Source: Verticiella sediminum (lineage in GTDB: Bacteria; Pseudomonadota; Gammaproteobacteria; Burkholderiales; Burkholderiaceae_B). From it: a DNA stretch of 64,000 nucleotides. A model generated the notes under the pieces. It made no database searches. It saw nothing but the letters and a program-made list of their open reading frames with translations, and was not told where the DNA came from. Of the stretch, positions 61,475 through 64,000 are shown one piece after another. The translations under genes were made by a program, and so were the position numbers. Position 1 is the stretch's first letter. The number at the start of each line of letters is the position of its first letter. Location: contig NZ_VLTJ01000044.1 in the NCBI RefSeq assembly GCF_007558815.1, positions 1 through 64,000 of the forward strand, read 5' to 3'.

Positions 61475-62284
61475 ATGCCCGCCCTGCTTCGACTGTCCGG
61501 CCGCATCGCCCTCTACTGCTCGTTCGCCCTGCTCGCTGCCTGCGCCACCCGAGGGCCGGGCGGCTACATCATGGACGACAGCCTCACCGCGACCGGCCAA
61601 AGCAGCCGGGCGCAGTTCCTGGTGCTGCACTACACGGCGGCCGACACACCGCGCTCGCTGCACCTCTTGAGCCGCGAGGAAGTCAGTGCACACTACCTCA
61701 TCACCGACGACGACCCGCCGCGCATCTTCCGGCTGGTGGACGAGGACCGTTCGGCATGGCATGCCGGCCACAGCCAATGGCGCGGCCGCACCTGGCTGAA
61801 CGCGAGTTCGATCGGCATCGAGATCGTCAATCCGGGCTACACCACGCAGCCCGACGGCTCGCGCCTGTGGCATCCCTATTCGCCGCGGCAGATCGACGCG
61901 GCGCTCGCGCTGGCGGCGGACATCGTGCAGCGCCACCAGATCGATCCGCGCAACGTCGTCGGGCACAGCGACATCGCGCCGCAGCGCAAGCAGGACCCCG
62001 GGCCGCTCTTTCCGTGGCAGGAATTCGCCGCGCACGGGCTCATCGCCTGGCCCGACAACGCCGCGCTGCGGGCCCACCGCGTGCGCTTCGAGCGCGACGG
62101 CGTGCCGGACGTGGCGTGGTTCCAGGAGCAGCTCGCACGCGTGGGCTACGAAGTGCCGCGCCACGGCATGCTCGACGAGCCTACGCGCAACGTCGTCGCC
62201 GCGTTCCAGATGCGCTACCGGCCGCAGGACATCGCCGGCGAGCCGGACCGCGAGACCGCCGCACTGCTGGCCGCCCTGCCCTGA
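61475..62284 (+). CDS. N-acetylmuramoyl-L-alanine amidase, AmiD-like lipoprotein
   Basis: 269 residues with lipobox LLAAC (Cys22). The amidase_2 zinc site is seen as FLVLHYTAADTP (first His), GIEIVNPG (catalytic Glu side), and NVVGHSDIAPQRKQDPGPLFPW (His, Lys and Asp). A peptidoglycan-binding helical bundle occupies about 200-265. Expected to be an outer-membrane lipoprotein that trims released cell-wall muropeptides. Begins 12 bases after the kinase stop, so it may belong to the same transcript. Confidence 0.93.
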   Translation: MPALLRLSGRIALYCSFALLAACATRGPGGYIMDDSLTATGQSSRAQFLVLHYTAADTPRSLHLLSREEVSAHYLITDDDPPRIFRLVDEDRSAWHAGHSQWRGRTWLNASSIGIEIVNPGYTTQPDGSRLWHPYSPRQIDAALALAADIVQRHQIDPRNVVGHSDIAPQRKQDPGPLFPWQEFAAHGLIAWPDNAALRAHRVRFERDGVPDVAWFQEQLARVGYEVPRHGMLDEPTRNVVAAFQMRYRPQDIAGEPDRETAALLAALP

Positions 62285-62391
62285 TCGTTCCCAAGGCAGG
62301 CCCACGCGCCTGCCGCCATGGGACGACGCCCCCGCCAGGGGCGCTTTGACCCCTTGCGGCGGCTGGGCGATAAAAAATCTCGCGACAGCGC

Positions 62392-62420
62392 TTGCGTCAT
62401 CAAAAAAACCTCTCTATAAT
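62392..62420 (+). promoter_or_regulatory. Promoter of the initiator tRNA
   Basis: TTGCGT (62392-62397), a 17-base spacer, consensus TATAAT (62415-62420), 14 bases before the tRNA. Confidence 0.85.
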
Positions 62421-62433
62421 TCAATTCTTCAGA

Positions 62434-62510
62434 CGCGGGGTGGAGCAGTCTGGAAGCTCGTCGGGCTCATAACCCGAAGGTCACAGGTTCAAATCCTGTC
62501 CCCGCAACCA
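62434..62510 (+). tRNA. Initiator tRNA-Met (CAU)
   Basis: 77 bases with encoded CCA. The anticodon loop CTCATAA is flanked by GGG/CCC, the three G-C pairs of initiator tRNAs, and position 1 is an unpaired C opposite A, the mark for formylation. The T arm CAGGTTCAAATCCTG is standard. A strong promoter stands before it and a terminator behind. Confidence 0.97.
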
Positions 62511-62548
62511 GTTAAAAAATCATCTCGCTTTTGCGGGATGGCCAGCAG

Positions 62549-62588
62549 AAAAGCCCGTCGGTACGCCGAGCGGGCTTTTTTGTTTTTC
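62549..62588 (+). terminator. Rho-independent terminator of the tRNA gene
   Basis: AAAAGCCCG pairs with CGGGCTTTT around a loop that itself holds TCGG/CCGA, followed by TTTTTTGTTTTT. Confidence 0.9.
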
Positions 62589-62818
62589 TCGCCACCGAGA
62601 GGAAAGTCTCGGCAGCGAGCGGTCATCCCTCGCCCGTGCGGCGAGGCGGGCCGGCTCATTTCGCGCTCGACATCCGGCTCCGCTTGCCTGCTTCGGTCCG
62701 CTGCCCGAACCGCGCAGATCAAGCGCGCGCGCCAACGCGCGCAGCCACCGTCCCCTCCACTCGACCATAGTAAAAACTACACACCTCGTTCCCAAAACGC
62801 CGTAACGACATTCCCGGA

Positions 62819-62832
62819 TGTAACCGGTAACA
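62819..62832. promoter_or_regulatory. Imperfect palindrome upstream of the sigma-54 promoter
   Basis: TGTAACCGGTAACA pairs at 12 of 14 positions. It lies about 80 bases before the -12 element, where enhancer-binding activators often sit. The stretch 62589-62900 holds nothing else that I can support. Confidence 0.3.
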
Positions 62833-62900
62833 CTCGCGGGTCGGCACACCCTGCCGGCCTTTTCACTGCGAAAACGAGGGAAAAAAGGCAGGTTTCGCCT

Positions 62901-62915
62901 TGGCACGATTGTTGC
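62901..62915 (+). promoter_or_regulatory. Sigma-54 (RpoN) promoter
   Basis: TGGCACGATTGTTGC: the -24 GG and -12 GC are exactly ten bases apart, and all bases of TGGCACG-N4-TTGC are present, with the favourable T before it and GA after it. It points to the small gene at 62979. Confidence 0.8.
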
Positions 62916-62978
62916 GATATGGGAGATCAGACAAATCCTGCAACGCTCTGCCGTTGCGCCGCATTCAGGAGTTCCCCC

Positions 62979-63143
62979 ATGCTGATCGCTTTCGAGACCG
63001 TGTTGGTGATCGTGTTCCTGTCCCTGGTCGCTCTGGGCATTGCCTTGCTGGGCGATCACGTCACGCAGGTGTTGTCGCGCAACGACCCGTGGCCGACGGT
63101 CAAGCGGGGGCGCCGCCTGGGCACCAGGCAGCAAGGGCATTGA
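62979..63143 (+). CDS. Small membrane protein (54 residues) of unknown function
   Basis: The protein begins MLIAFETVLVIVFLSLVALG and has one membrane helix (about 3-24), then a short polar tail with a DPWPTVKRGRR stretch, so the tail is probably cytoplasmic by the positive-inside rule. AGGAG lies seven bases before the ATG, and a complete sigma-54 promoter stands 64 bases upstream. I do not recognise a family. Clean signals on both the DNA and RNA level make it a real gene. It lies alone between the initiator tRNA and scpB. Confidence 0.75.
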   Translation: MLIAFETVLVIVFLSLVALGIALLGDHVTQVLSRNDPWPTVKRGRRLGTRQQGH

Positions 63144-63485
63144 ATCCTCGCGACGGGACGCCGTGACGACCGACGCACCCTCGCACGCCAGCGCCACCCG
63201 CTCGCGTGCAGAAATGCCTTTATCGCGAAAGCGCGCTGTGTTACGATCCTTGCGTGGCTCACAGTGTGGTCATGCCGCTTGAAGGCATGCCGATCACCGG
63301 CTGGGCACACATGCAATAGGAATCGATACGTTCGCTGCGCCGCCAGGCGCCCCTGGAAGCGGACTGATTCACTTCTCGCGCGGCACCAACCTTCCATCTC
63401 CGGCGCCAACGCCGGTCGCTGCGCGAATCCACGATCTTAGCTTTGCCAGCGGGCACTCCCGCTTATTTCGACTCACGCTGAGCCT

Positions 63486-64000
63486 ATGAACACCAGCGAG
63501 GCCAAGCTCGTCCTGGAGACCGCATTGCTATGCGCCCAGGCTCCGCTCGCGCTGTCCGACCTGCGCCGTCTGTTCGACAACGATCTGGATGCGGGCGAAG
63601 TCCGCGACCTGCTCGAGGAGCTGCGCGAGGATTGGGGGCAGCGCGGACTGGAACTGGTCACGCTTGCTTCGGGCTGGCGCTTTCAGAGCCGGGCTGCGAT
63701 GCAGATCTATCTGGAGCGCCTGACGCCGGAGCGGCCGCCCAAGTATTCGCGCGCTGCGCTCGAGACGCTGGCGATCATCGCGTATCGACAGCCGGTGACG
63801 CGGGGCGACATCGAGGAAATCCGCGGCGTGACCGTCTCCACCAACGTGGTGCGCGCCCTGGAGGACCGTGGCTGGATCGAGGTCATCGGCCATCGCGAAG
63901 CGCCCGGGCGGCCCGCCCTGCTCGGCACGACGCGGCAGTTCCTGGACGATCTCGGCCTGGCGGCGCTGGACGAATTGCCGCCGATCGACGAGCCCCAGGC
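63486..64000 (+). CDS. scpB: Segregation and condensation protein B, 3' end outside window
   Basis: The first 171 codons are present. ScpB partners ScpA and SMC in chromosome organisation. Signs are the two winged-helix domains, with [56 protein letters not shown], the [21 protein letters not shown] wing and [19 protein letters not shown]. The start at 63486 matches the family N-terminus. The 342 bases before it (63144-63485) show no gene and no convincing promoter. The frame runs off the window without a stop. Confidence 0.95.

Follow-up and report, generated by a model that had tools for sequence, protein, structure and literature searches.

AcrZ, KdpF, MgtS, and CydX are small single-span modulators of membrane complexes. 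Like them, the protein described here has fewer than 60 residues, one helix, and no enzymatic domain, a comparison that concerns only how such proteins work. However, it differs from all four in having no match in the family libraries, no target gene in the neighborhood, and a promoter of the sigma-54 type. Its gene lies at positions 62979 to 63143 of the stretch of Verticiella sediminum DNA that was analyzed as a whole, i.e., the first 64,000 nucleotides of contig NZ_VLTJ01000044.1 (here called the window).

Two further systems resemble the locus in its regulatory region. A perfect TGGCACG-N4-TTGC element directly precedes a 53-residue hydrophobic membrane protein of the DUF1328 family and a BON-type gene elsewhere in the V. 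sediminum genome (L022/L106; G000:C38 near 80493, minus strand). The element stands 50 bases upstream of this DUF1328 protein (start to start), which is apparently a second small membrane protein under sigma-54. The likeness is one of small size beneath a -24/-12 element; the families differ, as shown by the absence of a PF07043 match, and the two upstream regions have no word in common. The CbrB-type sites of Pseudomonas are built of TGTTAC/GTAACA sub-sites, and several GTAAC words likewise stand upstream of the -24/-12 element studied here. However, no CbrB ortholog was identified here, the GTAAC words are only weakly echoed in the related genome of Verticiella sp. GG226, and CbrAB has been described as exclusive to Pseudomonads. 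CbrB-like regulation of the promoter is an analogy to be treated as a lead only.

The small gene and its predicted membrane protein

The open reading frame (62979 to 63143, forward strand, stop codon included) comprises 54 codons and is translated as MLIAFETVLVIVFLSLVALGIALLGDHVTQVLSRNDPWPTVKRGRRLGTRQQGH. The ribosome-binding site AGGAG (62967 to 62971, forward strand) is located 7 bases before the ATG. Hydropathy reaches a maximum of 2.77 across residues 7 to 25, within a hydrophobic stretch of approximately residues 3 to 25 that is followed by a basic part. An AlphaFold2 model built from two sequences (mean pLDDT, 76; pTM, 0.41) has a helix at residues 2 to 35 that is confident in its first half (pLDDT near 95 at residues 11 to 20) and a weak second helix at residues 40 to 51, and a single membrane helix is therefore predicted. 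No Pfam, NCBIfam, or PHROGs model matched up to an E value of 10, the comparison with solved structures gave three weak hydrophobic-helix matches, and the text returned by the literature searches does not name the gene in any paper among the matches listed. The initial annotation, which had described a 54-residue frame with a good ribosome site, one membrane helix, and no known family, agrees with these results on each point.

An ortholog was identified in Verticiella sp. GG226, with 67% identity over 54 residues and a tail that forms the variable part. Like the V. sediminum protein, it has no Pfam match up to an E value of 10, DUF1328 (PF07043) included. The start codon is ATG in V. sediminum and GTG in GG226, and the ribosome-site word and its spacing are unchanged. 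Across the first 42 codons, the two genes differ at 10, 1, and 21 sites in codon positions 1, 2, and 3, respectively, corresponding to a dN/dS ratio of 0.088 at a dS of ~1.4, whereas all 54 codons give 18, 9, and 27 differences and a ratio of 0.23; these values come from the single comparison that two carrier genomes allow. The conservation of promoter, ribosome-site spacing, and protein, together with the codon-position pattern and the low dN/dS ratio, indicates that the ORF is a real protein gene under purifying selection.

The same data bear on the possibility that the transcript is mainly a regulatory RNA and the frame secondary, as for the CrcZ RNAs of Pseudomonas, which are sigma-54 driven. 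Regulatory RNAs that are transcribed by sigma-54 polymerase and have TGTTAC/GTAACA words as activator sites are on record (PMC6296734). However, the excess of third-position changes with the low dN/dS ratio over 42 codons and the retention of the ribosome site with its spacing in GG226 argue for a translated product, and an Rfam search of 62000 to 64000 returned tRNA only. An RNA function is on this evidence highly improbable.

The stretch LLGDHVxQxLSRNDPWPTVK is the most conserved in the protein, and part of it (LGDHxxxxLSR) has a short likeness, the closest that was found, to the C-terminal end of the MetI permease. The small gene could in principle be the broken-off end of a MetI-like transport permease that has been kept by selection, given that this likeness falls at the end of a 219-residue frame, which we take to be a MetI permease, and that it occurs in two small-genome family members. 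Nevertheless, the best E value was 0.003, in one genome of the 121 searched, which is not significant over 121 genomes, and the V. sediminum genome itself yielded no permease match at E values up to 10; with the lack of any Pfam match noted above, a permease origin is hardly credible.

The sigma-54-type promoter and the sequences upstream

The promoter TTGGCACGATTGTTGCG (62900 to 62916, forward strand) is a perfect consensus match, with its -24 element TGGCACG at 62901 to 62907 and its -12 element TTGC at 62912 to 62915, so that GG at -24 and GC at -12 lie 10 bases apart in the TGGCACG-N4-TTGC context. The transcript of the small gene would start near 62926. The complete element that the initial annotation had reported is thus present, upstream of the gene as stated, at a measured TTGC-to-ATG distance of 63 bases in place of the 64 given there. 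It is the sole perfect copy in the window. Shuffled versions of the window are expected to contain 0.10 perfect elements, and since one or more appeared in 10 of 100 shuffles, the perfect element by itself is weak proof.

Comparison with GG226 adds to the case. There, the promoter (TTGGCACG-N2-TGTTGCG) retains 15 of the 17 bases and stands 48 bases ahead of the start codon, versus 63 in V. sediminum. Within the 200 bases 5' of the start codon, the promoter is the top-scoring conserved ungapped segment between the two sequences (score 11, with 8 for the runner-up), and 11 of 1,000 shuffles attained a score of 11. Both the promoter and the reading frame are therefore conserved in a close relative, an outcome on which the initial annotation had staked its proposal.

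Genome-wide, there are 11 perfect elements, compared with 4 for a reversed control, which indicates that chance sites occur. Ten of the 11 precede a gene on the same strand and the remaining one lies inside a frame on the opposite strand, both as judged by eye. The genes behind them include rpoN, binding-protein and lipoprotein-like genes, two LysR-like regulators, the DUF1328 protein, and the gene studied here; rpoN and the DUF1328 protein alone were checked by models and the others were named by eye. The shuffle counts and the reversed-control matches leave some room for a chance -24/-12 match, with the gene transcribed from another promoter or by read-through. However, the element is at a usual distance before an ORF under selection and has been retained in GG226 although the DNA around it has diverged, and a simple scan of 62500 to 63500 found no sigma-70-type match in this 1 kb. 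We consider a chance match very unlikely and, judging from the sequence, it is very likely that the small gene is sigma-54 driven.

A near-palindrome of 14 bases with one mismatched pair, TGTAACCGGTAACA (62819 to 62832, neither strand assigned), had been put forward in the initial annotation as a possible activator site. That proposal is unsupported: the palindrome lacks a counterpart at its position in GG226, occurs once in the genome when up to one mismatch is allowed, and is no rarer than chance, as an equally good one was present in 174 of 500 shuffled versions of the 260 upstream bases. More unusual than the palindrome are three GTAAC words at 62802, 62820, and 62827 (spanning 62802 to 62831, forward strand), a cluster that was equalled in none of 20,000 single-base shuffles, although the word was picked after the cluster had been seen. 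When 27 distinct sigma-54-type sites from two Verticiella genomes were surveyed over 200 upstream bases each, a GTAAC or GTTAC word was found at four sites, and at least two words were found only at the site studied here; the other three sites each had a single word, 9 to 15 bases before the -24 element. In GG226, the echo amounts to a GTTAC word and, 19 bases from it, a TTTAC word, both lying on the opposite strand. The GTAAC words may be activator half-sites, which we regard as a lead only. Outside the promoter, the upstream segments of V. sediminum and GG226 resembled each other no more than shuffles did, and no conserved activator site was found. Of five known activator motifs, none was closer than shuffles in the V. 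sediminum upstream DNA; the GG226 stretch was scanned with the same five motifs without shuffles.

Sigma-54 activators and a possible role for the protein

The genome encodes RpoN, which passes the NCBIfam cutoffs, and has nine strong matches to the sigma-54 activator domain (PF00158). No sigma-54 activator gene was found in the window, and the nearest on the contig is ~53 kb away, consistent with the earlier remark that nothing nearby explains the sigma-54 control.

Given these elements, the explanation that we put forward, with about an even chance of being right, is that of an autonomous sigma-54-driven small gene whose product spans the inner membrane once, modulates a larger membrane protein, and is produced in response to a condition sensed through sigma-54. 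RNA polymerase with sigma-54 would form a closed complex at the -24/-12 element, which an activator would open upon a signal from nutrition or the envelope. The 54-residue product would then enter the inner membrane as one helix (approximately residues 3 to 25). Under the positive-inside rule, basic parts of membrane proteins lie inside, and the short N terminus would accordingly be outside and the basic C-terminal part inside. The conserved LLGDHV-to-WPTVK stretch would lie at the inner face and probably contact and tune the larger membrane protein, by analogy with AcrZ and AcrB. We infer sigma-54 dependence in the cell, the orientation, and the modulator role, the last of these being a best guess from size and topology. 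A comparative study associates sigma-54 in broad terms with the exterior of the cell (PMC3162934), a link that is compatible with a membrane protein but not specific. The locus offers a well-bounded, testable case of a small membrane protein without a family, under the most tightly controlled type of bacterial promoter and in one genus, and its trigger and partner would reveal how a young small protein gets wired into an old regulatory system.

In both Verticiella genomes, rpoN has its own -24/-12 element, and close to it are a BON-type gene, the genes for two sigma-54 activators, and a histidine kinase gene (L113:721-7719, G000:C21; L114 and L115, G001:C30). The two activators have similar DNA-binding ends, one of them has no receiver domain, and neither reaches the cutoff of any family among the NCBIfam matches listed (25 of 107 matches for one activator and 25 of 29 for the other). 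By eye, the G001 cluster also contains a cardiolipin synthase-like gene. The group looks like a sigma-54 envelope-stress cluster. The receiver-type activator of G001 (L114:3271-4679, G001:C30) is present as two overlapping frames, compared with one frame in G000, reflecting either a frameshift or a sequencing error.

The same gene and promoter could belong to an envelope-stress regulon governed by these twin rpoN-linked activators and including BON-type genes. Such membership would be in keeping with the occurrence of the cluster and of the rpoN element in both genomes, with an 11-of-12 element at a BON-type gene in GG226, and with the order of perfect element, DUF1328 protein, and BON-type gene in V. 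sediminum. However, the rpoN and DUF1328 promoters have no GTAAC or GTTAC within 200 bases and no upstream word in common with the promoter of the small gene, and both genomes additionally encode activators that, by eye, resemble NtrC, NorR, and PrpR. We regard this membership as unlikely and retain the autonomous sigma-54-driven gene as the preferred reading.

Distribution and local history

The gene was seen in the genus Verticiella only, so that the search for it in other Burkholderiales, suggested in the initial annotation, did not reveal a wider spread. A scan of genome_contigs with short peptide patterns (84,980 species, one genome per species) recovered one relative, Verticiella sp. GG226. 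Four genome samples, which may overlap, were searched in addition: (i) 121 relatives gave 11 matches at E values up to 0.1, of which two were convincing (the V. sediminum genome itself and the same-genus genome G001, which is probably the GG226 assembly); (ii) 250 family genomes gave 5 matches at an E value of 0.01, the same two Verticiella genomes being convincing; (iii) 399 order genomes gave 6 matches at 0.01; and (iv) 369 class genomes gave 2 matches at 0.001, with the V. sediminum genome alone convincing in both of the latter samples. No convincing relative outside the genus was found in any of the four. By eye, the weak matches were fragments of other frames or noncoding DNA, and the L120 match (E value, 2.9e-4; 1 of the 369 class genomes), LSRxDPWxTV without a preceding helix, was taken as chance. 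Plasmids, phages, and viral contigs gave no match. A third Verticiella genome, of 89% completeness, likewise gave no match to the small gene, and the loose -24/-12 pattern did not occur on the coding strand upstream of scpB in that genome. When up to 1,500 bases before scpB were scanned on that strand with the loose pattern, the two Verticiella sites were recovered, along with weak ones in 3 of 28 other loci.

In 19 of 27 scpB loci outside the genus, a tRNA-Met gene and scpB are arranged head to head, up to ~150 bases apart, and the other eight loci have no such tRNA gene. In V. sediminum, tRNA-Met lies upstream of scpB on the same strand, at a distance of ~975 bases, and the small gene falls within this interval (window positions 62434 to 63486). 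Compared with the other loci, this arrangement is evidently a local rearrangement. A possible, if rather speculative, history is that the gene was born within one genus: the rearrangement at tRNA-Met would have made room before scpB, and a new single-helix protein with its own sigma-54 switch would have joined a regulated response that has no counterpart elsewhere. The GG226 locus has two tRNA-Met copies and also, as judged by eye, a further membrane-protein-like frame.

A further stretch that is kept in GG226, TGTGYTACGATCCT, is located ~240 bases before scpB, in the region of window positions 63236 to 63486. The simple sigma-70 scan did not report it; it looks like an extended -10 element, and the scpB transcript might begin with a long untranslated leader.
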